Position numbers and translations under genes: made by a program. The notes beneath the pieces are model-generated. The model saw nothing but the letters and a program-made list of their open reading frames with translations, ran no database searches and had not been told where the DNA came from. This document shows positions 41,301 through 63,836 of a DNA stretch of 64,000 nt, in pieces; within the stretch, counting starts at the first letter, position 1, and each line of letters opens with the position of its first letter. Source of the stretch: Sipunculus nudus (lineage: Eukaryota > Annelida > Sipuncula > Golfingiida > Sipunculidae); the NCBI GenBank assembly GCA_026874595.1, contig CM049322.1:44392840-44456839 (forward strand), read 5' to 3'.

Positions 41301-42085
41301 TCCGCTGAATGTTTTTCGTAAACAGATAACCAGTATTTACCAGCTTTATCCATGTGGTCAGAGTATTTTATAATAAGGTCCACCAAGGTTATATTTGATA
41401 GAATACTCCTTTGATTCTCTGAATATTTCAAGCAAATATAGCCTAAATAATAAAGACCACACTCTTCCTTTGGGGTACAGGTAACAGAAAAACGATCAAG
41501 ACATATTAAAGCTAAATACACACAGTATTGTGGGGTAATAAATTGTTCTGAACTTTGGAATATGACTTGTGTTATTTTATCTAATTTATCTTCATGACTA
41601 CCTGGTTGAATGGAACGCATGAGAATGGCAATAAATGAGTAAGCTACTTCAGGACTAAAGCCTTGAACATGCAAGGACTTACTTCTGTCTAAATATGCAT
41701 TGTATTTTGGTGAAAATTGTGTAAAAATAAAATTGCATTTAGTATTGTTATCTACGATATACAACAAATCTGAAACATTGCAATTCTGCAAGCCATCAGA
41801 TCGATTCAGAATCAGCAGAAGGTCATCAGGATCCGTTAAAAGATAATCAGTTATTTTTGTAGCCTCAACCCCGGAAAGGCCACACTGGTGTTTTATAATG
41901 GTTGCAAGATCGTTATAAAAGAAATAATCAATGTTTAAAAAAATAACATATCGAAAGGTTTCTACTAAGCCTTCTTTTTTGGAATCATCAACTGATCTGG
42001 CCCATCGTAATGCGAGAATCTTCACCAGGGTTGACTTCCCACTGCCAGTGCAACCGTAGAGCAAGGTTCTCTTCAAGTCGGCTTT
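35390..42085 (-). other. 6.7-kb NACHT and giant LRR exon
   Basis: One exon of 2,231 codons plus stop. NACHT occupies about the first 200 codons. From about 40,800 down to 35,400 the sequence is nearly all RI-type leucine-rich repeats in a two-repeat rhythm of about 57 residues. One LRR carries the GNxLGxxGF style and the other a cysteine pair (NCKC, NCAC, YCKC). Examples are SSNKLGRNGMHSLSLALL and SGNRAGGEGMSAVSDILQ. No stop or frameshift interrupts it, so selection has kept it open. An AATAAA overlaps the final codons just before the TGA. Confidence 0.93.
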
Positions 42086-42190
42086 CTGTGTGAAAAAATT
42101 TGATAAAATATAAATATGAAAATAGGATATCTATAATTAACTTTATGACATTACATATAAAATTACTTGTATTCACTTTCTCTCTCGTTT

Positions 42191-42257
<67 letters not shown>

Positions 42258-45200
42258 TAACGTGTATGTATGTGTATATTGTCCTTATTATTTGCGTGTT
42301 TTATATTATCATAATCATCCTTTTAAGGAATACTGTTTTTAACATTACTGTTTTTTTAAGCTTGACTGAGGGAAACAAAGAGAACAGTTTTGCATCAATG
42401 TCTATAAATATCTATAAAGGGTATACTAATAGTAATTATAATAGCACCGATAATTGAAAAAGACAAAAAAATAAATCAATATTGATAACTATAAAATTAA
42501 ATAGAATCATACGGAATACGTTTCAGACTTTAATGATTTTGTGCCTTGCATATTTATAACATTTTTTTAAATGGTTAGGCTGTATAGAATAGAAAGCCGT
42601 AAAGTGATTTTGACTTTCATGAACAGTCATATTATATTCCTAAATAAAATGTTTCATGGATAATTAGCATAAACGTCATCATCTCAAATTGATTACGAGG
42701 AAATAAAAAAAGATGAATGGTTCTTACAGTTTCTGAAAAAAATGATTTCTCATGATAAAAGAATTGACCAAAAATACGATTTATTTTTCGTTGAATATCA
42801 TTTAAGATAGATCAGAACCGGGTAAGCAATATAAATCACTCTGACCAATTCATCTGTTGTGTCATGAATCCTGATATAATGATGGTTTGACGAAAAACTG
42901 TCGCTAATCTGACTATGTATTCAACACATAAGGGTTATGTATTGCCTGGTACACAGGCATGGTTTGTTGTGCCATATCTATATAATTAATACGGAGTTGG
43001 GTTTTTTCTAGACCACGGTTAACCAGCTTCCGATCTGATTTGAATCTCCAAATTCTGCAGACGTTTCAGTGGTGTACTCTTCTAGGACAAGTTTGTTTTA
43101 TTTTGCGGGATTATGCCCTATTAAGCTGAATAATTAATAATTTTAATATTTCCCCTTAAGGTGCCCCTATTTCTTTTGTGCTGCAAGTTCCTCCACGACG
43201 CTTTTTCAGGAGGCGCTTCGGGGATTTTCACTGGCTTGTTAAGACCGTTGCCAGAGCGCATGTCCTGTCCAAAAGGCACTCACTTCTAATGGTCCTCATT
43301 CTCTTGGTGACTTTGAAAACCCCGCCAGAATCTGCTGATCAGTCGTTCGTTCATACGTGCACGTTTCATGTAAAAAATTGTCATGGTTCAGAAACACGGG
43401 TTTACTAGGCGAGTGGCAAAACAACTGCATGCAAATGGGCGGCTTCTACTCGGGGACAAAGGAATAGCCCCTTATAATTAATTATTTCTTTGTGTGGTGA
43501 TTCCGATTACCGCCAAAAATGTAATGGATAACGGGTGCAGTTTTACTCTATCCCTCTACAAATTTTCAGCAAAATCTGTATATTACATTTTGCGTTAATT
43601 TGCCGAAAGACAATACAACGAACCAAGGCTCAAGTGGTTTCTTTGTTAAATGCTTTCTTCGAAATATATCAACCTGCTTTCTTTATATGAGGCAGAGTTG
43701 TCAATTTGGAATCAAATCTGCTTATTCTATGACAATTTACAGTACTTAAACGAAAAATTTAATACTGTTGGAATATATTTTCTGGGCCTGTCTTTTTCAC
43801 ATTGGCAGCTATAAGTTTCGCGTACAAGAGACTTCAACGACACATGCATGTGTATACAAATAACGCATGCGTCTGTTAACATGCCTTAGGCTATGCCCTC
43901 AACTTACTACACTGAATAAACATCGTGTTTCACGATATCGCCGGAGCTTTAACTAATACGAAGTATATTTCATATAATTTCATGGTAGAATGCTTCTTTT
44001 TACAATCGTTATATCTACGATATTTCCCAAGAAATGAAGAGCTTCCGCTAGATGGCGCAGAGGTAGGAAGCACTTTGTAGGAGCTCCGAAGTATTTTCCT
44101 AAATATAGGATAAAAGGAGTACATGAATACTCTGAAATGTGCCAAAACATTCATCTAGGAATATAACAATGGTGGACGAGTAAATTTAGCAAAACCAAGT
44201 ATTGCAAGAACTTTGGGTGGATATTTTTGTTTTGTCGAAAGAGCTACTGCCACGTCACAAGGCTGAGACTGGATAAATCCTGAATTACACGGCGGCCAAC
44301 ATGGACAGTCAAGGTAAACCAAATTTTGATATTAATTAACAAGTCGCTCCTTGTGAAGATTCAGCAACAATACCACAAGATTTATCTGATAGACAGCTCT
44401 TGGAATTAATTTGGACAAAAGTATCAAAAATTGACCAAATTGGCAGCCGTGTAGATGAATGCGTTAGAAAAATAAACTACCTCGAAAACAAACTTGATAA
44501 CTTAGAGACCAACTATAAAGAGCTGGAGGAAGGGACCTCTTATATAGAAGGAGAGTTTGAGGAGCAGAAAGCTACAATGGAAATTTTAAAGAAAAATATG
44601 GTGCAAAAGACGGACCTTGAAAAAGTTCAAAATGAAGTATCAGACCTAAGTAATTATACCAGAGGTAAAAATATACTACTTCATAATGTACCAGAAGGTA
44701 TGGAAGGTCAAAATACAACACAGTTTGTGGACCATTTTATTAAAGAAACCATTGCCGTTGATGACAGTCCAATAGAAGTTGCATACCGAATTCCTCAGTC
44801 TGGTGGTAATAAAACTAAGGTCCATGGGGCCAATGATGAAAAGAGATCACGAATAATATTGGTACGTTGCACCACAAAAACAAGCCGTGATCAAGTGTTA
44901 CGCGTGGCACCTAGTTCACTGAGTAAGAAAAAATTCAACGGCCAACAGATTTATGTAACGGATGATATACACAGTGATACACGCCAGATACACAAGAAAT
45001 TAGTACCAGCGATGCGAGAAATGCGAGCGAAGGGGTGGTTTGCTATTATCCCTTGGTCCGTCCCCAGAGTGATTCGTTACAGAGAAGGCCCAAAGGACTC
45101 AGGGTTACCTATGAAAACCTACAGGATTAAGTGACCCGTTTCAGCTTCAAATTTAATGGACTTGCATTAAAACAGCTACACACGTGGGGTATTTTCCTTT

Positions 45201-48200
45201 TTGATGCTTTTAAATTAAATGAATTGCAGACTGAGAGCTCCAGGTGCATGGTATTCCGTGTCTACCGGTGTTACTTGTGCATCCGACCGTGACGCCGGTG
45301 GTACATTCAAACGTTGCATGTGTTGTGTGCAGGGACTATCTTTGTGTGTATCCTTCATTTGCTATGTGTAACTTGGGTTTGTTGTGTTGGAGGTAAGGTA
45401 TTGTTTTTGTAATATATTTCTATTCTGAATGGAAAACTTGGTTAACTTTTCAGTTATTTCTCTTAATGTTAGAGGATAACGAAATTACGAAAAATGGCGG
45501 AAGTTGTTTAACTGGCTGGTGAAACACAGGGGGCGTAAGTCTGTCTGTTTCTTACAGGAAACACATTGTACACCTGAAATACAACAATCGTGGCGAAATC
45601 AATGGAGAGGCGAATCGTTTTTCTCTTTTGGTACAAGGGACAGCTGTGGTACAGTAACATTAATTGGAAGCGATTTAGAGTTTACAAAATTAGAAGAATT
45701 CAAAAGTGATGATGGACGTCTTATTATTTTTTACTGCCTGTTGCAAGGTTCTTATTTTCTCTTTATTAATTCATATTTTCCAAATATTGAAAAAAATCAA
45801 GTCCCCTTTTAATGCCAACTGCATAACCATTTACAGGATATTGATATTAATGATAATACAAATATCATTTGGGGCGGAGACTTTAATTGTGCCTTGTCAT
45901 TAAGGGATCAGGATTCGGATACTTCTCCTCTAAAAGTTCGCACAATAATGACGCTTGAAAATATTATTGAATCTCTTGACTTATGTGATTTCTGGAGACT
46001 GCGAAACCCGACTGTTCGTCAATTTACATGGAGGTCATTAACACCTCTACGACAAAGGAGACTTGATTACTATCTTGTGTCAAATAGTTTGCAACAATGT
46101 GTGACATCCACTGATATAATTCCAGCTGTGTCCACAGACCATTCGGCTGTTACCATTAGTCTTAATAATGAACATAGCCAAGGCCATGGTCCTGCACACT
46201 GGAAGTTCAACAATTCATTAACTCGGGATAATGATTATTGCCAACATTTATCAGAGAATGTTCCTTTATGGAAGCAAGAATTTTTTCAAAGTTACGAAAC
46301 GGTTGACCACAGAAAGTTGTGGGAATTCCTTAAATTTAAAATTCGCGAGTTTACTATTCGTTTCTCAAAGAAAAAAGCTAAAGTCAAGAGAGAAAAAATA
46401 CTTTGCCTTGAAAAAGAAATTAAGAAAATAGAGAGAAATATTAATTCTGAACCAGAGGCTATGGACAGATACATAAATCTTCGAAAACAACTTGATGATC
46501 ATTATAATTACATTACCGATGGCATGATTTTAAGGTCAAGAGCGCAATGGTATGAAGAAGGTGAAAGGAACAGTAAGTATTTTACAGGTCTTGAAAAAAG
46601 CAGAAAATCACAAACATTTTTGAGAAAACTTATTAATGAAAAAGGCAAAGAAATTACAGATCCACAGGATATAATCAGAGAATTACACTTGTATTATTAA
46701 AAAAAATATACTAGAATATCCAATTTAATCGACGATGATTGCCATAATTTTCTCAATTCCATTGACATCCCGGTGTTAACGGATACACAAAGATTGCACT
46801 GTGAAGGTGAATTTACAAGCCAGGAAATATATAAAACTTTGAGCGATATGTCTGGAAATAAAACGCCCGGAAATGACGGGTTAACTAAAGAGTTTTACAT
46901 TAAATATTTTTTTTCTGATAGGTCAAGAATTAACCAATTGTTTAAACGAGAACCATATTAAAGGCTAATTAACTAATAGCCAAAAGCAGGCTATTGTATC
47001 TCTTATTCCAAAGCAAGGTCGTGACTGTAGATATATAAAAAACTGGAGGCCTATAAGCCTTTTAAACGTAGATACCAAAATTATAAGTAGAATATTAGTT
47101 AATCGTATAAAGCCTTTATTGTCAACCCTAATTGGACCTGATCAATATGCGTTCGTACCAGGTAAATATATTGGGGAGCCAATAAGATTAATCGCGGATG
47201 CAATGCATTATTGTGATACTGAAAATACACCTGGCATTTTGGTAGGCGCGGATTATACAGCCGCTTTAGATTCGGTCGACCATACCTTTCTTTTCTCTGT
47301 TCTAAGAAGATTTGGCTTTTCTGAATGGTTTATAAAATGGGTCCGCGTGCTGCACACAAACATTGAGAGAAGTGTAGTGAATAACGGGTACGGTACCAAA
47401 TACTTTCCTTTTCAAAGGGGAACACGGCAAGGGGATCCTCTTGCTCCATATTTATTCATAATGGTTATGGAAATACTATGTCTTATGGTTAAGTATAATA
47501 AAAATATAGGGGGAATAAGGGTTGCCAAGTCAGAGATAAAAATGTGTTTATTTGCAGATGATTCGACATTTTTTATTAAAGACGAAAACTCTCTATTTCA
47601 CCTTGAGGAAGTACTTTGTAAATTTTCAAAATTTTCTTCTCTCAAAATTAACTTTGAGAAGTCTGATGCTTCATGGCTAGGCCCGTTAAAAACAGTGATA
47701 AGAAAATAGGCCACTTCAACTGGATAAATTTAACCAGAAATGCAATTAAAATTCTTGGAATTTATTTTACTTACAATAATACTATTAACCAGAAATGCAA
47801 TTTTGAAAAAGTTTTAACTTCCTTCACTACAAGTTTAGAGAGATGGAATCGTAGATCCTTGTCCTTTTTTGGACGAATAACAGTATTGAAAACATTTGCT
47901 ATACCAAAAATCATGTATCCTTGTATGATGCAATCTCCACCATCTTGCTTTCTCAAGGAGGTTCAAGATAAAATAAAGGGTTATTTCTGGAAGAATAAAA
48001 AACCAAAAATAAAACAAACGACACTCATTATGGATTATAAAGATCGGGGTTTAAAGTTACCTGACATTGAACTTGTTTTGAAGTGCCAAAAACTTATATG
48101 GGTCAACAAATTAATTAATTCTTCGGATACACCGTGGAAAATTATACCTAACTTTTATTTGAGAAAGATTGGTGGTATTAAAGGTGTAAATTGTAATTTT

Positions 48201-51200
48201 GATAGAGCACGGATCCCTAAATACTTACCAACATTTTATAAAGACTGTTTAAATGCTTGGGCAACCTCTATTCGCACGATACCCACTAATCGAGTTACAG
48301 TGTTGGCCCAGCCGCTCTGGAATAATTACTTACTAACTAGAGAAAGAGCTTCCTTCTATTTTAATACTATCTCTGGACACGGATATAACTTTTTAAAAGA
48401 CATTGTAGGAAATAATAATGAACTGATAAAATGGCAGGATTCAGGACTAGAGCTGAAGAAGTACATGAATTGGACCGCTGTCTTACATTCTATACCAAGA
48501 GAGTGGCTTAAACTGTTAAATCATGATATCCTAGAACAAAAAGATTCAACCAATGTACTTGACAAACCATGGTATTTAGAAAAGTTAAACGTCAGAACAA
48601 TGTACAGTAATTTAGTGAAAGAAAAAGGAATTCGCCCAACTGCACAAATACAGATACAAAAACTAGTAGGGACGGATATAGATTGGCAGTTAGTTTATGA
48701 GAGGCCCTTTAAAACCACAATTGAAACAAAAACTAGAGAGTTTCAGTATAAAGTTTTGAACGATACTTTACCATTAAACGAAAAATTATACAGATGGAAT
48801 CTTGTTGAAAATGATAGATGTTCATATTGTTCTATGAATGCTGAAACATCAGTTCATATTTTTTCAGAATGTGCTCAGAGTTGCTTAGTGTATAGTGAGA
48901 TTTGTAATTGGCTTATGGAATTCGATATAAAAATGCCAGAAAATACAAAAGAAAATATGTTGCTAGGAGTTATCATTGAGACAACAGAGGATGTATTAAT
49001 AAATCACTTGCTTCTTACATACAAAAATATGGTTTTTAATTGCGGGTTTCACCAAGTGAACTGTCTCTACAAAAATATGCAGCAATAATATTTAATTTGG
49101 AACGTATTGAATATAAAGTAGCAGAACAAAAAAATAAATTAGAAAACCATATTAAAAAGTCGGAGAAATTGAAGTCTTTCCTGTAATAGTACTGTAATAT
49201 TCGTATAAAAATTAATATACGATTATTTTCTTCTTGTACTACCTACAGATGTAGGAACTCTGATTGTTGTTATGTTTTTTTTTTTTTTTTCGTGGTTTGT
49301 AACGCGTATGTATCCTTTGATGTCTGTAAACTTCATGTATCGTCTTGTTAATTGTTTATATGTTATATTGTGTGATGTATTGTTGGTATTATATCAATAA
49401 ACCTATTAAAAAAAAAAAAGAAGCTGAGGAACCTATGTTGTCTATCTGAAAAAAAAATTTCACTTAAAAATTCGTACACCCCGTATATGCCTGACGTCTC
49501 TTTCCAATTTTTTTTTTTTTGGGTGCGATTTCTGGGTTAAAATATTTTTTTCTTTCTATGTAGATATTTTGGGGGAGGGTGTTCCTGGAGAATTCTAGCA
49601 GTAGTTATCTTTATATCATATAAGTGAAACACATGACACGGTTCCTGCAAAAAACCTTAGGATTAAAATATGCGTCGTTTAGTTCCAATCAACTCATTAC
49701 AAAAATATGCATCAGATAGAGCAGTGGATTTTCCACGGGTGCAGCTAGTATCAATAAAATATCTCATTGAATGCTAGATATTAGATACTGCAGGATAAAT
49801 ATATTTATTTTATTAGATTAATGGGATTTAACTTTTTTGCCTTAGATAATATATCAATGTTCTTTAACATAATTTGTTTAGCTATTCATTTTCTTCATAT
49901 ATTATGTATAACAAGGAGAGTGTATCCTTATAAGGCAATCCTCCGTTTTGTATTTGTACCAGATAATATTATGTACTATTAAAGTAATATCAGTTACCAA
50001 TGTAAAGTGTACGCTCGTTTCATTGTCAAATATCATTGAAACGTTTAAATGCACCATCACATGTAAAATCAGCTGTATAAAAGTAGTTTTCAAAATTCAA
50101 TATTAACCTGTCCTTAACAAATGGTATACAGATTAATTTAATACGGCTTTCAGGTACAAAATACTGAAAGGTATCATTATTAGCTCTAGTTTTAATTTTA
50201 CAATCTTAACATTTAATATTTTTATAGGTTTTTGTGCTAGATCGACTCATCCCGAAGCTATATTAGCAATATCAATGCATTTGGCAGGACACACTCGAAT
50301 GAACACTCACCGGGCCCATTTTGCTGCATATGTCAGTATAACTGCGCAGAAAATCTTTGTCTTCAGATATATTATTTTCTTGAAATATTTCCTCCAACGC
50401 CACTTCGTCTTCCTGTTCATTCTCTGATGTGATGATCATCCGTGAGAAGTCCTTGATATACCTCGTAGCCAGCGCTTTTTGCATATCATCATTAGCTCGT
50501 GCGAGTATCTCTACAAGAATGAGTCAGCTTTCACTAATTCGGTTCTCTGTTATAAATGTCAATATAACATAGATAAATTTGAAAGTAAAGAATTCTGAAC
50601 CATCTGGAAATGCTCACCACTTTTGTTGATCCTAAGAGCCAAGTCTTTTTTGTCTATTTTCTTCAAATATGAAAGAAACTTGTCAAACTGATCTTGAGTG
50701 CTAGACGCAAGATAATTGACTACCAATTCTGATTGCAACTCCTTCCTGTGTTTGAACTGAAAAAAAGTATGTAATTAATTATAGGAGTTGGGAGTTTTGC
50801 GGTATGAAAGTATTCCATTACTGATAATAAAGGACGCATCACATAATACACTCGCAAATACATATCATATAAGTACCCGATCTCCCCATTAGTCTTCTTT
50901 GAACGGCACTGTTGTTCACAGTAATTATTTTTTTTTAAATAAAATGTGTATAAAGTAACTAATCTGATTAATTATTTGATACAGATAAGTAGGTGGATAG
51001 ACACGTATGTATTTGTGTGCATCAGTGCAGCCCCTTGGGTAACTATAGCCCTAGAATAGTAATTATTTAACTGCTTTAACTTACCGCAAATCGTGCGGCA
51101 CGTCTGTTGAGTATAGAGCTGCTCAGCAGGTCACTTACAATCCGATCCTTTTCTTCGTTAAACATCCTTATCAATTCTGACTTGTGGCCATATATCGCTG

Positions 51201-52237
51201 CTTCAGTTGAGCATAGATATTCTTCTGTATATCCAGATTGCTCTCCGCTCGGGATGCCTATAATATCACCACATGTACATTGGTTTGATTCAATATTAGA
51301 ATAACGATGTATGACCATTTAAATTTGTCAACGCGTGATGGCTTTTATTCAAATTTCATAGATGAACACATCATTGATCACTTTAAATAGTAGGAGAAAC
51401 CTTGTGTTTACTTTGTCAGAACACAGGCCTTTTTTTATCATGGTGACTTGTTGAGTTTTATTCACTTGGCTGAGGAGGCTCAACACTGCGAATGGTCAGG
51501 CATTTCAATGTTCAGTTACATATGCATATGATATTTTTCCATTGTGTCTTGGTAAAACAACGGCCATGCCGTCGTATTTTATAGCGAATAATGTGTATTT
51601 ACGGTGTCACGCCCCTTGAGCTTCATAAAGGCTGCTTTACACAAAGAATATTGTAAGAGTGGTCAAATAACAGTGCTGGTAGAAGTATTACATCCATGCA
51701 AAACATGTTTAAAACAAGTTTATGAAAAAGCATTTTATAACTCTAGAAAAAGACCATCGGTCAGGGTACACACACGTAGAAGTGTAACTGCAATCTAAAT
51801 AAACGGGATCTTACTAGACAACATATTGCTGATCTTCTCGCTTCTGTTGTGTCTCAAGCATTCTAAAAAAGTATTGTACTGATCTTTTGTTTTCGAAGTT
51901 ATTCTGCAAAGCAGTTCAAAAGCTTGTTCCTTTTCATCAGTTGCCAATTTCTGTAAGAATCATGGAAATTGTATATGGTATTTTATTGTCAGTTTAAAAA
52001 TGATCCAAAATACATACGAAATCAAGAATAGTAAAACTTCAAAGAACAAATATGTACACGAAAAAAGAGAGAACGAAGGGGACAAACCTCTATTTCCTTC
52101 CGTTCCGCTATTGTAAAAACGGATTTTTCGATCAGCGATTTCCACAGTTTGGTGGATATTTTCAGATGAGAACACAAATTTTCAATGTTGCTTCCTATGT
52201 AGACTTCAGGTATTCCATATGATGTTTCTCCAGCCAT
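35390..52237 (-). CDS. CARD-CARD-NACHT-LRR giant NLR (6 exons, intron 5 hosts a LINE)
   Basis: Six exons join in phase: 52237-52088, 51950-51815, 51257-51085, 50756-50618, 50510-50311 and 42085-35390, with intron phases 0, 1, 0, 1, 0. The product is about 2,497 residues. Exons 1-2 and 3-4 each encode a CARD-like six-helix pattern. Exon 5 is an acidic linker. Exon 6 holds NACHT (Walker A GCTGSGKST, residues about 277-285) and roughly 1,800 residues of LRR. The domain order matches vertebrate NOD2, a cytosolic sensor that signals by CARD contacts, but the LRR is far longer. The Walker B region reads LLLILNRSDG and the sensor region FIFTQFSP, so the catalytic residues look degenerate. The long exon opens at an acceptor (CACACAG|AAAGCC); the leucine codon downstream is not the start. 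The true ATG, chosen in exon 1, begins MAGETSYG. Confidence 0.85.
42086..44159. other. Intron 5 of the CARD-NLR, 3' part; no gene seen
   Basis: Intron sequence between the NACHT exon and the LINE. It holds a (TA)n tract at about 42193-42252. Otherwise it is unique AT-rich sequence, with a slightly GC-richer part at 43.18-43.45 kb where no conserved protein is recognisable. Confidence 0.6.
44301..45134 (+). pseudogene. LINE ORF1 (L1 ORF1p-like), premature stop
   Basis: The ATG at 44301 is followed by an in-frame TAA at 44337-44339; the frame then stays open to TGA at 45132. The N-terminal part is a coiled coil (heptads around KINYLENKLDNLETNYKELE). Next comes an RRM-like segment (NILLHNVPEG, RIILVRCTTKTSRDQVLRVA) and a C-terminal domain (FNGQQIYVTDDI). 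This order is that of L1 ORF1p, a nucleic-acid chaperone that trimerises on element RNA. It is inactive here unless the stop is read through. Confidence 0.85.
45429..49088 (+). pseudogene. LINE ORF2 (endonuclease-reverse transcriptase), multiply broken
   Basis: The ATG at 45429 opens an APE endonuclease (SLNVRG), with a TAA at 45477. The frame then resumes with FLQETHC, shifts near 45,800 and continues with WGGDFN and RLDYYLV. Another break lies near 46,690, and a damaged segment at about 46,900-46,990. RT motifs follow: NKTPGNDGLTKEFY, NWRPISLLNVDTKI, RGTRQGDPLAPYLF and the catalytic FADD in CLFADDSTFF. A further shift near 47,690 leads to a long C-terminal part with a CCHC-like CSYCSMNAETSVHIFSEC. 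Motif A reads ADYTAALDSVDH. This would be the enzyme of target-primed reverse transcription; this copy is dead. Confidence 0.9.
49420..50310. other. Intron 5 of the CARD-NLR, 5' part; no gene seen
   Basis: AT-rich intron sequence after the LINE poly-A, with T-runs near 49,510. The donor of the intron is CCG|GTGAGT at 50310 on the minus strand. Confidence 0.6.
50311..52237 (-). other. Tandem CARD exons 1-5
   Basis: The first CARD-like fold is split between exons 1 and 2 (LCSHLKISTKLWKSLIEKSV, then KLATDEKEQAFELLCRITSK). The second is split between exons 3 and 4 (RIVSDLLSSSILNRRAARFA, then a segment starting FKHRKELQSELVVNYLASST). Both have the CARD-type rhythm: an L-x-L helix, a turn before 'Ex/NRR', then a Q/D-QF or QY helix and a closing Leu-rich helix. 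Both are interrupted by a phase-0 intron at the same place after helix 3, consistent with internal duplication. CARD is favoured over Death/DED by pattern only; a profile search would settle it. Confidence 0.75.
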
Positions 52238-54621: not shown

Positions 54622-57024
54622 TCAATGATCAAAAATTGACTGAATGTTTTCTTCCTTACATAACATTGCCTCAATATCAGGGTCCAAGCCACATTCGGAC
54701 AAATCTAATGTTTCCAATGACTGCGTCTGTTTCCAATACTCTGTTATAGAATCACCTAATGATGCAAAATTGTTGCCTGACAATATCAAATGTTTTATTG
54801 TTTGAGATTTTTGTACTGCGAGAAAAAAGGACTGAAGAGTATGAATGAGTTCAATTTTACAATCGGATAGATTGACATAATGTAAGTTATGTAAGTTTGC
54901 AAACTGTTTGATAAGTGTGCTTGTAACTGGGTCTCCAAATTTGTTTCCGCTGAAGTTGATTTTGAAAAGGTTGGTGCAGGTATGAAGAGACAAAACCAAT
55001 GCAGTCCACGTTTTCTCGTCATTGCAACTACTTTTGATTATTTCAACTGTCTCCAACTTTTTTAGATTACCTATTTGTTTTGTCAAATTTGTTAGACTAT
55101 TAAAACCAACTGTTTGTGACCCAAGTTTCAAAGAAACTATATTTGGGGTATACTGCAAGTTTAAAGTGATGCTTTCTACTAGATCACAGGTTCCTTCTCC
55201 TGCATCTGATAAAAACAAATGGGTTAATTTAGGTGTAAATTTCATTGAAGTTCCAATATATTTGTAACATATATCGGTGATTCTCCTGCCCGAAAAATCT
55301 AATCTCTTCAGGTTGCGGCAATTTTGCAGGGATTTGCAAATACCCTCAACATTCAGGGGTCCGCTTGTAGACATGTCGTTACAAATACAGAATGTTTCAA
55401 GATTTCGAAGATGAAGTAATGATGTAGAAACTAGGCTTATTAATTTATCTGATAAAAATGTGGAAGAAAAATCTAAGACCCGAAGCGAATTTTTTTCCTT
55501 CAAAAACTTCAGAGCTGTTAATAAATTGGTAGTATGATCATCAGGGAAATACTTGAAAGCGAGAATTTCCAAAGGGAACTGAGGTATCACCAGTGCTAGT
55601 CTATTTTGTTTTTCAGTCGTGTCATAATTACTTGCTGCTGATTGGAATCGTAATTCGAGCGAGTGCAATCCTGGGGCTTTCAAGCCTAACAACAGTTCTA
55701 ACTCTCTCACATTTGCCATTTCTAGTATTACAGATCTGACGTTTGATCCATCTAAGCTAAAGTACTTCTCCATAACGCACGATGTGTAGTCATGGTTAAA
55801 TGGAAGGTGTATACATTGTGGGAGTGAGAACTGGGCTTTTTTATTTTGAGAGAGATAATCAAGCTGAACTTTTGTAGCAGGCTCTGCAGTTTTGTCAGGT
55901 GATTTATTTATAATATCAATTATGCTGGAAGTGAAGGTTTCACCGCCAAGTGCACTTAGAAATCTTGTAAACAAGGATAAGTCTGTCAGGGCCCCACTTT
56001 TACTGTACATATTTACCAAAATTGTTTCCCTCTCTGTTTCGCAACAGTCTACCAGATAAAGGGCGGCAAAATATTCCTGTAAGCTTTTATGATAAAATTC
56101 GACACGTTGAAATGTTGTGCTAGAATCTAGAACTGCTTTGAATATTCCTAATTTCCACCCGCCTTCACCAATTTCTTGCAAAACCTCCTCCTTCGGAAAC
56201 CACAAGGTAAACGTTTCTGTCTGAAGTCCTTTAGACGCAAGGCGTCCGATTTTATGTAAACATGTCTTGTACTTTTGTAATATATTACCCTTACTGGAAC
56301 AGACTTGTTTTGGATAATACTTTTGCTCACACCTACCACATATGTGTTTAATTATCTCTTTGTACAAGTCAGCCAAGGTCTCAGCAAGAATACCGTACTC
56401 TCTCCACAGAATACACATCAGTAACAGTAAAGTTGGACAACGGCCGTAGCTTTTAAGATCTTCCGCGGAATTAATTTTTTCTTTCAGTTTTCCGCCTTCC
56501 TCTGTGTGGTTAAAGAAAGAATTTATAAAATTATCTCTGCTAGTATCTGTGAATCCCTTTAATAAATATACAGTATAAAGTTTTTCTGCCGCTGTATCAA
56601 GTGGATACATGGTTGAAGTGTGGAGCGGTCTGGTGGTGAGGAAAAGATTGATATCTGGCAATTCACCTCTGAGAATGCTGGTGACTTCTTCTGAGTTTTC
56701 TTCTTTGTATTCGTCGTATCCATCCAACACTAAAAGTACCTTTGATGGAGAACGCTTTAAAAATTCGTAAAGTTGTTTAGATTCCTCTACATTCAGCAAA
56801 AGCTGTGACTGAAAAATGTCTTCTAACCCCTGCCCAGGAGCAACATACCTGAGAAAAATTGGTATGATTAATTCAAATTGAAGTAACATTTTGGAGTCTA
56901 TGTCTGTTGAAAGTTTCTGTGCATTCTTACTCCAATCGATGGCAAGTCTTTGACACAGTGTAGTTTTTCCAGTACCAGCTTCCCCAATAACCTTAATTCT
57001 TAATCGCCGCTTTATTCCATAGGC
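54622..57024 (-). other. NACHT-LRR exon 10 of the lectin-NLR
   Basis: The exon starts after the acceptor CCAACAG and reads AYGIKRRLRIKVIGEAGTGKTT, 800 codons without interruption. NACHT is canonical: Walker A, VLLVLDGYDEY (Walker B with both acidic positions) and NLFLTTRP (sensor 1). A winged-helix-like region follows (EFYHKSLQEYFAALYLV matches the usual pre-LRR motif). Then come RI-type LRRs, for example LKRLDFSGRRITD, LFKINFSGNKFGD, IKHLILSGNNFAS and LETLDLSECGLD. The stop codon is at 54622-54624. Confidence 0.93.
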
Positions 57025-60000
57025 CTGTTGGAGTAAAATAACATTATACACAAAGACAGAATTGCAAATGGATATAAATCCCCAACCCAACATGTCAAAA
57101 ACAATTTAAACAGTTATCATAAATTATGTTGCCTGGCTCGGTTTAGTGCTTAAGGTAAAAAAACATACCGGAATCGTTTTGTCCACAATAAATAGCTGTA
57201 CCTATAAGACAAAGTGTTTTTTTTTATATAATCTTTGTACATGTGTTCGTCATTATATAATCATTACATGCAGGAACTTTATGAATATCTTGCCCTACCT
57301 TTTCAAACATGACACAATAGTCAGAAATGCTTCCTTGGCGAAGACCACGCGTCGTTTGAGTGAGCTCTACAAGCTCCAGGTCAGTAAAGATGTCGTCCAT
57401 AGCCAATGATGCGTCGTCATCAAGCCAGCTCCAGCTTTCTATTTTTCCAAACATTTTTGTTATATTGTCAACTAGGCTTCGTTTCCCTTGATTCCATTTT
57501 AGTCGTTCTAAATTTGATTTAAACAGACGAAAACACATTTGTAACTATCTGGCATTACCTACTACTTGCGTATATCATTGCGTACCGGCAAATTAAAATC
57601 ACCTTGTTTCAAATTATAAAATGTTTATGTTATTGTACTTTGCCATTAATAAGGCTAAGTCAACAAAATAAATGGAAAAAAAGAAGTTCAGAAATAGACT
57701 AAAAGAATTAAATATACCTGTTTGTTTAGACATGAGCGGTATATCAGTGTCATCATTAATTCTTGTCGGGTGTCGCTTGTAAAATGCAGGTATGATCTAT
57801 AATAATCAAGATAATTTTATTCCGTTTTAATCCGTGACAGTGGCAATTGATTAGAGACCAAACTATTTGACATTAACTGAAATTACAACATAGACAAAGC
57901 ATATATTATTTCTACACCATGAAAATCATCTTTTGTCATTTTGATTTAAACTAAATCAATAACATTTAAAGCATATGACAAACTCTCACTTTTAAAAGAC
58001 TTACCTTCTTCTTAATGACGTAAATGAAAACGACTGATAACGTTAGGGCTAAAGACCCGAGAGTGGCTCCCATAATCAATTTTGTTCTATATCTGTTGCC
58101 GTTTTCAACTGAATATCCTAAATAAAAAAAACCTTATGGGCAAAATTCGGGAAATTAATTATATCATTTTAAAAAGTCAATATTTAAATATTAAGGCCTT
58201 GCTATAAAATGTAGAAAATAGTATTTGTTCACGATAGCAGAATTTTTTTTTCTTAAATTTCCTATCTTTTGTACATTTCATCACAGATAATATTCAAGCG
58301 CATATGTACCACTTTCTTTTGGTAGGTCAAAATAAAACATTCACAAGCGGTAGATTTCTTTTACATATATCCAAACAACAGTTGTTACAGTCAACTCCCG
58401 AACCTGAGGAATTCGTGACAGGCCATTCCAGTCCTTGTGTGGACGTGACTGGCAGGTTTGTGTAACTGCTTTCAGGCTCTTTAAAGTCGGGTACATTTTG
58501 CAGTCCTGCGGAATATTGTATACCATACTATAAATACACATTGGACAACATGGTATCTTTCTTGGGCTGGACTCTTAAGATATGCTATTACTTTGAATAT
58601 AAATATCATCCTGTGGTGATGCGGGTCAAATAGTAAGTTTTGACAGAGACAGAGAAAGAAAGAAAAGTACAGTATAATATGGATCAAAAGCTTTGTTTCA
58701 ATCACGTAACGTTGTGAACATTTAAGAAAAAAATCATTCTACCTGATGCCTGACAGATAAAATGTTTTTTGGCACTGCAGTCAGATGCTTTAAGGTAGGA
58801 TTCTTCTTTGTCGGAGTAAAATACAAGACAATCCCCCACATCAGATGGCTCTCCTTTACCCCAAATCCATATGGGCTCCACGCTTATGTTTGACACTATA
58901 AAAAAGGAAGCTACTGCGAAACGTTTCGGGTTATGTGACATTTCATGTAAGATCCGTTAGTTTCAACAAATTCAACAGCAGTTTTATAAACATTTATTAA
59001 GTAGTTACCCTTTGTGCTCCAATCTTCACTCCTTAAGCCAATCCAAAAATTTTCACATTTTGATTTGAGTTTAGTCAAAGATGTAACAGGTGACTTGTTC
59101 TTAAAAACGGCCAAATCATCTCCGTCTTCTTGACATGCGTAGCGAGCATTGTACCAACTATTCTTCTCACAGAAATACAAGAAACAAGTGTTTCCTATTT
59201 TCATACAAATGTTCGACTTCCATCCGAGAGATGCACATGACAAGCAATCTATAAACATAGAAACAATGTATTGATTAAACATGATGAATGTAAAAGGTAT
59301 ATATGTAACTAAATTATTGAGAATCATACATATCCGTTTTATTCATCGGAAGAAATATGAATTTACTAAGCCATAATGCTATCTACAATGAGTATCTACA
59401 GTGATGTAATACTTCAAATAGGAAATGCAAGCAGATTGTCGAACTATAGAATTATTTTTGAATAGGCATACTTCAATAGTTTGATGTTAATTGAAATTAG
59501 GTGACATGCTAATGTTACCTTGGATGTGGCACATATACCCAAATGTCAAATCAGAACATCGTGATTCATAAAGAGCTGGTTCGCTCCGATTATAGTAGGC
59601 ACATCTGTCTTCTCTGTCTCCATAATTACCTACATACGTTATTTTTAAGTACAAAACTATTTCACAGATGTTCTGATAGAAATCGAATCATGAATCAGAT
59701 ATTAAGGTACACGTTTTAGTGATGTTTCATGTTATATCAAAGCATTGTTTTTATTTATCAAAATGCTTTAGGCAAAACAGGATAGATGAATGAGTTTTTT
59801 TTTAATACTTATTTTAATTAAAAAAATAATTATCTAAAACTGAGGCCAAAAGTTAATGAAATTCTGCTACTGTGTGATATAACATCAGTTGTATGTACCA
59901 TACACAACTTTATATGTATATGATGGGCAATCATTATTCGTTAAGAGTAAAAGTTATCAGCATACCACAATATGTAAAATATGTCAAATTTACCAAACTT

Positions 60001-60390
60001 CTTTTCCTCTTGACCGTTAATCCAAGACCAAACTGATAGATTTTTCCTTTTTGGTGACATCCAGACCTCAGAAAATCTCGCCAGCCGCATCTGTCTTTCA
60101 TACTCGCTAAAATAGCTCCTATTAAACGAGATTGGAAGAGTTCCGTCCATGGTTCTACGACAACAATCGAGGGCGTTGTCCTGGTCTAATGGTTTCTGAG
60201 CACATATATCTTGCGGCATGCCGACAACTATAAATAAATGCAAATTCCAGTTAACTAGCTTTGGCATAAATATATAGTTATTGTGTTTGTTAAATCAATT
60301 CCGGTATAAATTTGATTATTTTACTTGGAGGAGTACACTACCTGCGTTATTAAGTAATAATAAAATTGATGGAAACATCGCATGTGTCAT
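54622..60390 (-). CDS. Membrane-anchored lectin-NLR receptor: signal peptide, two CTLDs, TM helix, NACHT, LRR (10 exons)
   Basis: Ten exons join in one open frame of about 1,230 residues: 60390-60342, 60227-59994, 59629-59519, 59248-59009, 58895-58743, 58505-58404, 58117-58005, 57796-57718, 57507-57299 and 57024-54622. Introns 1-6 are all phase 1; the phases then run 0, 1, 0. Residues 1-16 are a hydrophobic signal peptide, 17-131 a compact C-type lectin-like domain, 132-262 a long-form CTLD, 263-296 an S/T/P-rich stalk, and about 310-331 a transmembrane helix followed by KKK. Residues 335-430 are a linker. NACHT begins near 440 with Walker A GEAGTGKTT, Walker B LLVLDGYDE and sensor LTTRP. LRRs fill the C-terminus. 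The predicted topology is type I, with lectins outside and NLR inside. It has no CARD, Death or Pyrin domain. The weakest junction is the donor CAG|GTTCGG at the end of exon 6. An acceptor-like CAG at 60408 suggests an intron in the 5' UTR. The phases are seen directly; the single-transcript claim is inference. Confidence 0.82.
57299..57507 (-). other. Pre-NACHT linker exon 9
   Basis: This exon enters in phase 1 at AG|AACGAC and leaves in phase 0 at AAG|GTAGGG. It encodes an acidic segment with WSWLDDDASL and DDIFTDLELVE just before the ATPase exon. A segment of the style 'D-x-F-x-D-L-x-L-V-E' commonly precedes NACHT in invertebrate NLR-like proteins, which supports joining it to exon 10 rather than treating it as a separate gene. 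No death-fold domain is visible in exons 8 and 9. Confidence 0.75.
58005..58505 (-). other. Stalk and transmembrane exons 6-7 of the lectin-NLR
   Basis: Exon 6 (58505-58404) continues the phase-1 frame from CTLD2 as an S/T/P-rich stretch (VPDFKEPESSYTNLPVTSTQ and onward) typical of an extracellular stalk. Exon 7 (58117-58005) encodes a polar segment, then a hydrophobic helix (LIMGATLGSLALTLSVVFIY) and the basic stop-transfer KKK. The next exon adds YKRHPTR, so the positive charge lies on the C-terminal side and the NACHT is placed in the cytoplasm. The exon 7 donor AAG|GTAAGT is strong. The exon 6 donor is weaker (CAG|GTTCGG), but it is the in-phase choice found. Confidence 0.78.
58743..60227 (-). 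other. Ectodomain exons 2-5: tandem C-type lectin-like domains
   Basis: Exons 2 and 3 encode CTLD1. It has a DCC cysteine pair in the first-helix position, a VWSWINGQ core and late cysteines in DRC, SRC and YMCHIQ. Exons 4 and 5 encode CTLD2. It has an extra N-terminal cysteine hairpin (DCLSC), NSWYNARYAC, the family WIGL motif in FWIGLRSEDW, then GEPSDVGDC and the closing FICQ. Each CTLD is split by one phase-1 intron and bounded by phase-1 introns. CTLD2 has EPS where sugar-binding family members have EPN or QPD, and no WND before the penultimate cysteine. Classical calcium-dependent sugar binding is therefore doubtful. A protein or lipid ligand is possible. Confidence 0.85.
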
Positions 60391-60490
60391 TTTGGAACTA
60401 GTGGAATCTGAAATAGAAATGGACAAATTGAGAGACAGATGAACAGAGGAACATTTATCTTGTGTAAAAATATCAACATATCTTATCATA

Positions 60491-60539
<49 letters not shown>

Positions 60540-60736
60540 TGAATATGTTTACAAAATTTAAGCTTACTGCATAAATGAAGTCCTCCCAAATCCTGGCTTT
60601 AATAATGTTGTGTAATGCAAACGTGCATGGTCGGCCTGTCTTATCTCCTCACGTCAGACCCAGCTACAGTCAAGGTCCACTTTTTGATATAGATAACGGT
60701 TTCTAAGTGTGTTTGCATAATGGTATCATTCTTCAC

Positions 60737-60790
<54 letters not shown>

Positions 60791-60931
60791 AATATATATA
60801 TATATATTCGCAGTAACACGGCTGAAACATCTTGTTGTTATCATTTAAACATCAGAAAACGTCTTTTTGACCGGAAACTTTGCAATCGTAAGACAAGTTA
60901 CAATTACACAACCAGTCATTTTGTTTATGAT
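60391..60931. promoter_or_regulatory. Divergent intergenic region, candidate bidirectional promoter
   Basis: Only 541 bases separate the start codons of the two oppositely transcribed lectin receptor genes. The interval holds (TA)n tracts at 60493-60536 and about 60740-60806 and an acceptor-like site at 60408 for the minus gene. No clear TATA or initiator pair could be fixed because of the repeats. Shared control of the two genes is inference from geometry. Confidence 0.5.
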
Positions 60932-63836
60932 ATGGATTTTTTTATTTACCTATCTACCCTGTTGATTGCCAGTATTCATCGTGAATGTGCTGGTAAGTAC
61001 TGTTTGCATACCTTCCCGAACATGCTAATAATCATAAAGCTGTTATTTTATTCTGAATGTCTTTACTCTGATTCGAAACAGGTAGCGAGCAGGTACATTT
61101 ATGCCAATCGTGGAACGCAGTCACAAGCCAATGCGAAAATTGCAAAGACCGTTGCAGTCTCCCTGTTATTAAAGACATGGACGACTATAATAGAATAGCT
61201 AACACCATGCAATCGAATAACGTAAAAGCTGTCTGGTTGGGTATAAAAAGAACATCCCTCGACGAATTTTTGTGGCTTGACTGTACCAGGCCATGTGAGT
61301 ATCCCATTCATCAATGGAGACATGTTTAATACCATTTGAGTATATCGACAACTCTTTTGTCCCTTTTTGTAAGTGAATTAAAATTAACTTTCCCCGTTTG
61401 CATGAACGTGAGTAATTAACTCACCCTGAAATTCTATACCCTTACTCAATCATATCAACTATCATTGTTACAGCCAACGTGTTCACAAGACTGAGTACGA
61501 ACCAGTCAAAAAATTGCGCAGTTCTTGACACTAAAAATGCAGCAATTTTACCAGCCGATTGTACCGATGAAGACAAAGGAGTAATTTGTCAGAAAAACAA
61601 TAAGTATTCATTTCTCTTTCTGCATTCGTTTTGTGAGCAAGTATCAAGTTTTATTGTTTGACCTGTTTCATATATATTATGAGAGAAAGAAAGAGAGAGA
61701 AAAAGAGAAAGAGAGAGTGAAAGATAGAGAGAGAGTGAGAGAGAGTTAGAGGGTTATATTTTTAGTTAAGGTTTGCTTATTTGTATTTCATCGGCAATCT
61801 TTGATTATGACAATTACCGGGATATTCATTTCAAGGGACCTACTCTAGAGTAATATTTTGGATAATCTTTTATATTTTCAGTTAAGTTTAGTTTTTACAA
61901 CAGTTTCCCAGAAAAACTCACCACAATCTCACTTCCTTGCATACTGATCTTTAACACCTTGTTATGGTTATGGGTGTAGGTAAGCACGGTCCATGTGTGT
62001 TTTTTTTTTGTTCACCATAACAAGGCCTAATTCTGATTTTGGTCTGATTTTGCCTATGTACACCAGATCTGAAACAAGAACTCATCCATGCATGGACCTT
62101 CGTGCCCTTTGATATATCTTTGTTCGATGGACATTAAGGTCCAAGGGTTTAATGTTAATTCAGTGAAAAACCTATCGGGACAGATCTATACGATCGACCC
62201 AGGAGCATAAGCTTAAATAACACGCGTATGAAAGTGAGAGCCCCAGTTCGCATTGTTTCAACCAGCGGGAACATGTGTATCATTTTGTAGGCTAAGTCAG
62301 TGAGGGCATTACCTGAGTGACAGGTGTTGTGGCCCAGGTGATGCACGCGCTCTGTTTATGTGGACGCCTGTAATCGCGCCCGATCTACTTTTTTAACAAT
62401 TGTGTACAGGTGTAATGTTTTTGGGTTTAATGGTTTTAATGTGGGGAGGAGTTATATTTCGTGTTAATTCAACATACTTTATAGGCCCCTTTAGAAGAGT
62501 ACCTTCCCTCAAAATGTAATCAACTAATCAACTTATTTATAAGATATTAAATGATAGGTTTGTCATTATGGAGTGTTTTGATAACGCCTTAGTTTTTTTT
62601 TTGTCACCTGTAAATTTAAAACTGAAATAAATCAATAATATCATCATGTGCATGAAGAGAGCCCGCATCTTGCCCATGACATCACTCTGTATGTATGAAC
62701 AGGTTGTGTGGATGGTTGCAGCAGCGTTGGTCGTGATAATGAACAGTGTATTCATTTGGATGGAATGGATCGATGTTATATCAGAAGATATAATGACTTT
62801 AACTGGGAAAGAGGAAAGGCTTACTGTTTATTAAAAGGATGGACTATGGCGATAATGAGCGGCTCCAATGAACAAGATATAGTGCATGAATTATCTAGCA
62901 GATTTAAACCAAGTGGAATGGATGGTGATCAAGAAATGTACTGGATTGGCCTCAGAAGAGAGGAATGGCTAAGAATTCCTGCAGAACCCGGTTAGTATAA
63001 CACCTTGAGTCTTTGTAAAATTTCGTGAATGAACATTTTGTTGAACGGGGTATGGTTATATTATACAAGGATGCTAGTTTTTATTTTACTAATCTGATTT
63101 CAAGTGTTACATGTGTTTGTTAACGAATAATAACGGAAGGAAAGGTTATTTTTTTTGTAGTTGTGTACCTTGTGTTCGATTCATTTAATCGCATGCGTGT
63201 TAATACTCAATCTTGGAATAAAAAATGAGTCATAGATGATTTAATTATATTTTAATAAACAGAATTAATAAGCTGCGTATTTGGCAATTCCGCTATCTAT
63301 AATCTACTCACAATATGTACTTCAGGTAGAAAATATGTCTCTTTTTGGGTCAGAGGTGAACCATCTAGTAACGGAAACTGTTCCGTCATGGTTAAGGGTT
63401 CCACGGGATATGGGTGGAAGGCCGTGGCGTGTTCATCAAAGCACCATGCAATATGTAGCACTGCTGGTATGTATTTCTACATTTTTGTAAAACTTAACGG
63501 TTTGCTTCAGATTATGATTATATTACAAAAGCAACTCTTAAAATTTGTTTTAAATGTTGTAGTTTTGATCCTTTGATTTAGCGGTTGAACCCGAAGACCA
63601 TTAGGAATGAAATATTAATCTACAGAAAAATGGAAATCAACCACTGGTAAAACCCAATAATAAAAATTATTAAGTTATTCAATCCTGTAGACATTCGTTT
63701 AAACATTTGTTGAACCGTTTCCCAGAAACAAAAGAAAGTCACACCAAGTCAAAACAATGCCCTACAGTTATAACAGAAAGATCTGATGCTGGTCCTAGAA
63801 CAATAACGGCGGCTAGGACTGAACATCCGAATATAG
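60932..63836 (+). CDS. Tandem C-type lectin receptor, partial; head-to-head paralogue
   Basis: Six visible exons: 60932-60992 (signal peptide MDFFIYLSTLLIASIHRECA), 61082-61294, 61474-61632, 62703-62990, 63326-63466 and 63726-63836, all joined in phase 1. Exons 2-3 form CTLD1 (AVWLGIKRTSLDEFLWLDC, then GVICQ). Exons 4-5 form CTLD2 (YWIGLRREEW, FWVRGEPSSNGNC, AVACSSKHHAIC). Exon 6 is an S/T-rich stalk (TITAARTEHPN) ending in a phase-1 donor. In the neighbouring minus-strand gene the equivalent stalk is followed by a TM helix and NACHT-LRR. That part would lie past position 64,000 and cannot be seen. The exon 3 donor is uncertain: the in-phase site GT at 61633 leaves a 13-residue tail after the lectin fold. 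Confidence 0.75.

Follow-up and report, generated by a model that had tools for sequence, protein, structure and literature searches.

A 64,000-nucleotide stretch of the Sipunculus nudus genome (contig CM049322.1, positions 44,392,840 to 44,456,839; hereafter the window) contains, on its minus strand, a ten-exon gene that is predicted to encode a membrane-bound receptor of the nucleotide-binding, leucine-rich repeat (NLR) type. The scripted join of its exons (start codon 60390, stop codon 54622) gives an open frame of 1,230 amino acids, and all nine introns are GT-AG, with phases 1,1,1,1,1,1,0,1,0; the proposal of the sequence-only reading that ten exons join in consistent phases was thus borne out. 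The predicted order of the protein is a signal-like start, two C-type lectin-like domains (CTLDs), a stalk, a transmembrane (TM) helix, a juxtamembrane exon, a linker, a NACHT domain and leucine-rich repeats (LRRs). Inspected by eye, the donor of exon 6 (CAG/GTTCGG) is unlike the GTA form of the remaining eight donors. A home-made exon finder, the training set of which was partly the window gene itself, recovered exons 2-9 unaided and also added spurious small exons.

A type I membrane NLR with a double-CTLD ectodomain, in line with what had been proposed from the sequence alone, is the best reading of this gene, backed by loci throughout the genome that have the same exon order, matching phases for those exons that were recovered, and an intervening TM exon. 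Because this order recurs genome-wide, the gene model represents more than chance, and a chance alignment of unrelated exons was dropped as an explanation. The CTLD-TM-NACHT-LRR architecture, together with the family to which the gene belongs, is considered highly probable from the sequence data.

Domains and Motifs of the Window Protein

The domain order is upheld in the joined exons by Pfam and hydropathy, and Lectin_C, NACHT and LRR_1 all score above their cut-offs. Lectin_C covers residues 160-260 (E 3.5e-13), while the first CTLD alone is marginal (exons 1-3 joined, 23.0 bits vs. a cut-off of 22.6). The NACHT domain (PF05729) occupies residues 441-603 (E 3.3e-16, 60 bits vs. 26.7), and LRR_1 reaches 24.6 bits vs. 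20.6 over the whole protein, with no stretch significant singly and the other LRR models below cut-off. NLRC4_HD2 at residues 742-837 is likewise below cut-off (23.2 vs. 33.1 bits). The sole clear membrane segment lies at residues ~310-331 (hydropathy peak 2.15) and has KKK behind it; of the other distinct peaks, the next on the list is 1.45 at residue 626, just beyond the Pfam NACHT match. The predicted TM helix and the signal-like leader argue against a cytosolic location of the protein.

In exon 10, the Walker A (GEAGTGKTT) and Walker B (LLVLDGYDEY) motifs are intact by eye. The closest PDB matches of this exon are 5irl, which we take to be NOD2, and NLRC4 chains, and those of CTLD2 are CLEC12A and L-selectin; an AlphaFold model of exon 10 alone had a mean pLDDT of 38. 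The canonical Ca2+/sugar site of CTLDs is comprised of EPN or QPD plus WND. By eye, CTLD2 carries EPS and no WND in place of this canonical site, and therefore classical sugar binding is not implied.

A Genome-Wide Family of CTLD-Linked NACHT Loci

The source genome (1.43 Gb, 153 contigs) was searched with NACHT and with the CTLD2 exon, and 150 places were scored in each case, from 270 NACHT and 794 CTLD candidates. At 41 of the 150 scored NACHT places, a family CTLD exon was found on the same strand no more than 12 kb upstream, compared with 2 for the opposite strand upstream and 1 and 2 for the two downstream arrangements; ten shifted-position controls gave 0-7 each. The 41 places are spread over eight contigs, and more are likely since both lists are the 150 scored of the larger candidate sets. 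The CTLD and NACHT exons lie within 4.3 kb of each other in 28 cases and 5.4-10.2 kb apart in the other 13. One near-identical duplicate (C3:40.72 / 40.82 Mb, 99.7% identity over 10 kb) is counted twice; such identity points to one recent event, which makes the pair useless for dN/dS. The 61 Mb contig C17 holds 80 of the 150 scored NACHT places and 76 of the 150 scored CTLD places, and appears to be an immune-gene-rich chromosome.

Twenty NACHT loci were inspected, drawn from ranks 2-24 of the NACHT search with three left out, all of which are CTLD-linked. Half of the twenty (L009, L011, L012, L016, L017, L020, L023, L024, L027, and L028) have CTLD exons and a linker exon upstream on the same strand. 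In the gene models of these loci, the order CTLD1, CTLD2, stalk, TM, juxtamembrane, linker, and NACHT recurs, and in L012, L023, L024, and L028 the phase at the end of the TM exon is 0 and that at the end of the juxtamembrane exon is 1, as in the window gene. The models are noisy: none was obtained for L016, and the TM exon was missed in L009, L011, L017, and L020. A multigene family of this kind, as well as the mirror-image double-CTLD partner gene described below, goes beyond what the sequence-only reading had claimed.

Transmembrane and Juxtamembrane Exons

The TM-exon filter (phase 1 in, phase 0 out, hydropathy >= 1.9, and splice scores) was set after the window and the first models had been inspected. 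It matched at 8 of nine family loci (L016 was not in the set) in addition to the window, and at five of the nine the candidate has at least two basic end residues. Both strands of window positions 1-34000 (68 kb), assumed to be mostly non-coding, served as the control and yielded 5 candidates, none with a basic end. The frozen filter was then matched in all of four later loci, chosen for the closeness of CTLD and NACHT, across gaps of 0.8-1.5 kb, with a basic end in two; at the control rate, the 4.2 kb searched would have yielded ~0.3 matches. The juxtamembrane pattern, derived from eight loci, consists of phase 0 in and phase 1 out, a basic start, acidic residues and a PL[LMKR]-like end, and it was present at 7 of 12 loci vs. 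one occurrence in the 68 kb control.

With regard to constraint, the comparison of the paralogues L020 and L033 gave dN/dS values of 0.20 for CTLD1, 0.37 for the second CTLD2 exon (CTLD2b), 0.36 for the linker and 0.41 for NACHT, the last including a frame-shifted stretch of L033. A value of 2.05 for the first CTLD2 exon (CTLD2a) was discarded as meaningless, the wrong frame having been set.

NACHT Relatives and Origin of the CTLD-Linked Form

The CTLD label requires 2 changes on a tree built from 21 NACHTs (shuffled mean 7.2, none of 500 shuffles as low). The CTLD-linked NACHTs cluster apart from a set including CARD-type NLRs, and the stray is L011, on a long branch. One change of the CTLD label is needed in 58% of bootstrap trees, and a single origin of the CTLD-linked NACHTs is neither shown nor excluded by these trees. 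Distances of CTLD2a and NACHT correlate across 9 loci (r 0.34, p 0.036); L016 and L024 were left out of the distance tests as well as of the receptor/partner tests described below.

Some NLRs of the same genome share the downstream exons and differ at the N-terminus. L013 and L019 have a CARD above the Pfam cut-off followed by the same linker exon and NACHT as the CTLD-linked loci. A further gene within the window (gene B, 35390-52237, minus strand) has a CARD (34.0 bits vs. a cut-off of 23.9), a linker-like exon and then an open frame of 2,246 aa that contains NACHT and a very long run of LRRs. In these presumably cytosolic proteins, the CARD takes the place of the CTLD-TM part; conversely, the CARD position before the shared linker and NACHT-LRR is occupied in the window gene by the two CTLDs with their stalk, the TM helix and the basic juxtamembrane segment. 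The simplest reading is that CTLD-TM exons replaced the CARD before the linker exon, once or a few times, and then spread. The gene B intron that precedes the NACHT exon contains a LINE, and at window positions 44340-49088 (plus strand) there is a non-LTR retrotransposon with an ORF1-like frame and broken endonuclease/reverse-transcriptase frames, named by eye.

A Head-to-Head Partner Gene

A divergent gene for a double-CTLD, single-TM protein has its start codon on the plus strand at 60932, 542 bp away from that of the window gene (Table 1). Its joined CTLDs match Lectin_C (E 3.2e-13), and only small uncertain exons were given by the exon finder 3′ of its TM exon.

Table 1. Exons of the window gene and of the divergent partner gene (positions in the window unless a locus is named).
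Feature	Position	Strand	Basis or remark
Exon 1: start codon, signal-peptide-like leader MTHAMFPSILLLLNNA	60342..60390	-	GT donor, phase 1; hydrophobic core by eye
Exon 2: CTLD1, first part	59994..60227	-	Lectin_C, exons 1-3 joined
Exon 3: CTLD1, second part	59519..59629	-	Joined frame and Lectin_C
Exon 4: CTLD2, first part, family marker exon "c2a"	59009..59248	-	Joined frame, Pfam
Exon 5: CTLD2, second part, GEPSDVGDC, EPS not EPN, without WND	58743..58895	-	Pfam; motifs by eye
Exon 6: Ser/Thr/Pro-rich stalk	58404..58505	-	Joined frame
Exon 7: predicted TM helix and KKK stop-transfer; phase 1 in, 0 out	58005..58117	-	Hydropathy, TM-exon filter
Exon 8: basic juxtamembrane, end DIPLMSKQT; phase 0 in, 1 out	57718..57796	-	Joined frame, juxtamembrane pattern
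Exon 9: linker, common to NLRs without CTLDs, no Pfam match	57299..57507	-	Joined frame, locus comparison
Exon 10: NACHT, helical domains, LRRs to stop codon	54622..57024	-	Joined frame, Pfam, PDB matches
Possible shared divergent promoter region, with TA microsatellites	60391..60931	.	541 bp between start codons
Partner exon 1: start codon, leader	60932..60992	+	Exon ends approximate
Partner CTLD1, first part	61082..61294	+	Exon model
Partner CTLD1, second part	61474..61640	+	Exon model; 3′ end uncertain
Partner CTLD2, first part	62704..62990	+	5′ end uncertain, exon finder: 62722
Partner CTLD2, second part	63325..63466	+	5′ end uncertain, exon finder: 63263
Partner stalk	63726..63836	+	Exon model
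Partner TM exon, just past window end	L029:77-213		Ends phase 0

A divergent CTLD exon series at the matching position was seen at 6 of the 20 inspected loci (L009, L011, L012, L017, L027, and L028). L020 has none within 5.4 kb, and none was found in the remaining ten; L016, L023, and L024 end before the partner position and were left out of this judgement. Genome-wide, 14 of the 41 CTLD-linked members have an opposite-strand CTLD within 15 kb upstream (shifted controls 0-2), and the comparison placements gave 5 for an opposite-strand CTLD downstream and 4 for a further same-strand CTLD upstream.

In the tree of receptor and partner CTLDs, the 9 and 7 rows fall on opposite sides of one branch (1 change, 0 of 500 shuffles). 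Support for this branch is modest (65/69; 66% of bootstrap trees), and branches are long. Receptor and partner CTLD distances correlate across 7 loci (r 0.57, p 0.011); no such correlation was obtained between the partner and NACHT (p 0.49). The branch and the correlated distances suggest that the pair is older than the divergence of the sampled loci. A paired system, in which the CTLD ectodomain gates its own NACHT ATPase and the co-inherited head-to-head CTLD partner acts as a co-receptor or self-ligand, may be proposed tentatively from these sequences and is, in our view, rather unlikely to hold in full. At L012/L030 (C17:19.80-19.82 Mb), three successive double-CTLD units occur on the partner side, possibly one multi-CTLD gene or a tandem array, and one predicted tail there ends in QITPLLDEH, like the PL[LM] end of the receptor juxtamembrane exons.

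Possible Bacterial Contigs in the Assembly

Nine COX1-family frames of bacterial length (577-578 aa) were noted on contigs C60, C61, C62, C66, C72, C74, C75, and C89, beside a mitochondrial-like COX1 frame on C123. The COX1 of C61 (2.17 Mb) has 65% identity to the best of 80 kept relatives. It seems that the assembly carries bacterial contigs, perhaps from a symbiont or a contaminant.

Relation to Known Receptors

In the usual view, animal NLRs act as sensors in the cytosol, and sensing at the cell surface falls to C-type lectin receptors, the signalling tails of which are small. NLRC4 and NOD2, the NACHT region of which matches exon 10 in the PDB, are cytosolic and have a CARD effector. NKR-P1 and CLEC2 are type II proteins.

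The articles cited by accession below, and the bivalve reports, are represented by extracts. Membrane NLRs are not wholly new, as ectodomain-TM-NACHT receptors and multi-TM NLRs have already been published. The best functional precedent by analogy is AjNLRC4 from the sea cucumber Apostichopus japonicus, which was reported to have an extracellular Ig pair, a TM segment and an intracellular NACHT, to be located at the coelomocyte membrane, to bind microbes and to drive actin-dependent phagocytosis (PMC8699970). It resembles the protein predicted from the joined exons in that a recognition ectodomain is followed by a TM segment and then NACHT. However, it has Ig domains rather than CTLDs, a second TM segment after NACHT and no LRR, and it was reported as a single receptor, whereas dozens of candidates are found here (PMC8699970). 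No Ig domain was matched by Pfam in the window protein, which has Lectin_C and LRR instead. AjNLR-new of the same sea cucumber also combines a TM segment, a recognition domain and NACHT in a membrane protein, but with Ig and two TM segments (PMC13133943). Anthozoan NLRs with 3-5 N-terminal TM segments, possibly membrane-bound, are similar in this respect, but hydropathy gives one such segment in the window protein, and the extract mentions no lectin ectodomain (PMC5094078). TM segments have likewise been published for NLRs of sponges. NACHT expansions were reported in the pearl oyster and Corbicula, with no CTLD fusions mentioned in the extracts. Like the window pair, NKR-P1/CLEC2 are encoded by adjacent genes for related CTLD membrane proteins, but two human pairs are arranged tail-to-tail and have no NACHT (PMC3819593).

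In the open-licence PubMed Central literature searched (supplements excluded), neither the CTLD-TM-NACHT-LRR layout nor a family of such size nor a head-to-head partner was found, and no CTLD-TM-NACHT protein appears in the extracts of PMC11797021, PMC10140915, PMC9334734, PMC9646362, PMC8298618, PMC11508797, and PMC12909245. The earlier statement that no such animal layout had been described is too strong and must be narrowed in view of AjNLRC4 (PMC8699970) and the anthozoan TM-NLRs (PMC5094078).

Evidence Against the Proposed Architecture and Alternative Explanations

Several observations weigh against a family of single membrane receptors. The TM filter had no match in L011, and the candidates of L009, L024, L027, L037, and L038 carry fewer than two basic end residues. 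The juxtamembrane pattern, drawn from the other eight loci, was present in one of four fresh loci (L039 only). The dN/dS values for L020 vs. L033 are 0.73 in the TM exon (39 codons) and 2.79 in the juxtamembrane exon (14 codons, poorly aligned), and hence no constraint is shown on either exon in this pair. A search for intronless (spliced) copies across the TM-linker-NACHT joints gave no intact spanning match: on C17, three places cross the joint between juxtamembrane and linker exons, each with a single in-frame stop, and a place on C11 crosses the linker-NACHT joint, also with a stop. The 13 pairs with the wider spacing may include neighbours rather than parts of one gene, and no clear correlation was obtained between CTLD2a and linker distances (p 0.16). 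At L025 (C17:47.52-47.53 Mb), a NACHT that falls in the non-CTLD group of the tree is preceded by a CTLD1 exon and a CTLD2 trace; this may represent either a neighbouring gene or an independent fusion. Some family members look dead: L033 contains stops and frame breaks, and an in-frame stop interrupts the NACHT place of L016. In addition, Pfam found no effector domain of any kind (CARD, Death, TIR) in the window protein and no death-fold effector (CARD, PYD, Death) at E <= 1 across its 1,230 residues; it therefore departs from the canonical tripartite NLR, and signalling by that route would require a partner. Finally, AjNLR-new was reported with NACHT outside and Ig inside (PMC13133943), and therefore the topology cannot be assumed.

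The architecture could be an artefact in which exon joining wrongly merged two neighbouring genes, a short-tailed double-CTLD membrane receptor and a separate NLR. Reading past the TM exon does give a short tail and a stop, in the window gene and likewise in the partner gene, so that short forms are possible, and L020/L033, the sole pair tested, lacks clear constraint on the TM and juxtamembrane exons. On the other hand, the orientation bias (41 vs. 2, 1, and 2), the grouping of CTLD-linked NACHTs except L011, and the phase-fitting juxtamembrane exon between TM and linker (7 of 12 loci vs. one in 68 kb, though one of four among fresh loci) all speak against two genes, as does the absence of a CARD between CTLD and linker in the locus gene models, inspected by eye without a Pfam search. 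We judge such a merger improbable. It is far less probable still that the window locus belongs to a decayed family and has no working product, since the stops of L033 and L016 are set against a window gene that is open over 1,230 codons with intact splice sites and against the dN/dS of 0.20-0.41 in the CTLD1, CTLD2b, linker and NACHT exons.

Other alternatives concern function. The protein could be a phagocytic or endocytic receptor, the CTLDs of which catch microbes while the NACHT-LRR tail connects to actin and trafficking instead of forming a signalling platform. The microbe binding and actin-dependent uptake of AjNLRC4 (PMC8699970) and the absence of a Pfam death-fold match are consistent with this, but the window protein retains the LRRs that AjNLRC4 lacks in the extract, and its Walker motifs, intact by eye, suggest a regulated ATPase switch; we regard this possibility as unlikely, albeit worth keeping in view. 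A linked receptor-ligand pair for cell-cell recognition, the partner being a ligand or co-receptor as in NKR-P1/CLEC2, seems less probable, about on a level with the merger of two genes. It is favoured by the excess of divergent upstream CTLDs (14 of 41 vs. 0-2), by the branch that splits receptor from partner CTLDs and their correlated distances, and by the genetically coupled, though tail-to-tail, CTLD receptor-ligand pairs of the human NKC (PMC3819593). However, no partner is among the matches listed for 27 of the 41 members (the L009 partner, seen at the locus, is among those missed), co-inheritance as a block would equally yield such a correlation, the branch is modestly supported, and the distances of partner and NACHT are uncorrelated.

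Proposed Mechanism and Significance

For the membrane NLR with a CTLD ectodomain, membrane anchoring combined with CTLD-driven NACHT activation is moderately favoured as the mode of action on the basis of domain order. The CTLDs would lie outside and the NACHT inside. The ligand of the former may be a glycan or protein of microbial or host origin, bound by the receptor alone or jointly with the head-to-head CTLD partner. Clustering of the ectodomains would gather NACHT modules beneath the membrane and favour ATP-dependent oligomerisation; we consider the chances that such clustering is the trigger to be evenly balanced. As for the output, NAIP seeds NLRC4 in a known case, and assembled NACHTs might similarly recruit cytosolic CARD-NLR relatives, or drive uptake as described for AjNLRC4. 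One or the other is the probable output because no CARD, Death or TIR was found in the window protein, and a relay through the CARD-NLR relatives in particular, suggested by analogy, is rather doubtful.

If true, a family of CTLD-NLR fusions would couple recognition outside the cell straight to a STAND ATPase, and it would make NACHT activation testable with defined extracellular ligands. It would also imply that the CARD of an NLR is exchangeable for a surface ectodomain by exon shuffling. The paired system, if it held, would represent the plasma-membrane equivalent of paired sensor/executor NLRs, diversified within a single animal into dozens of copies. With copies that are diverged and paired within one genome, the family would also be a candidate system for recognition specificity encoded in the germline of an invertebrate, or for recognition of self.

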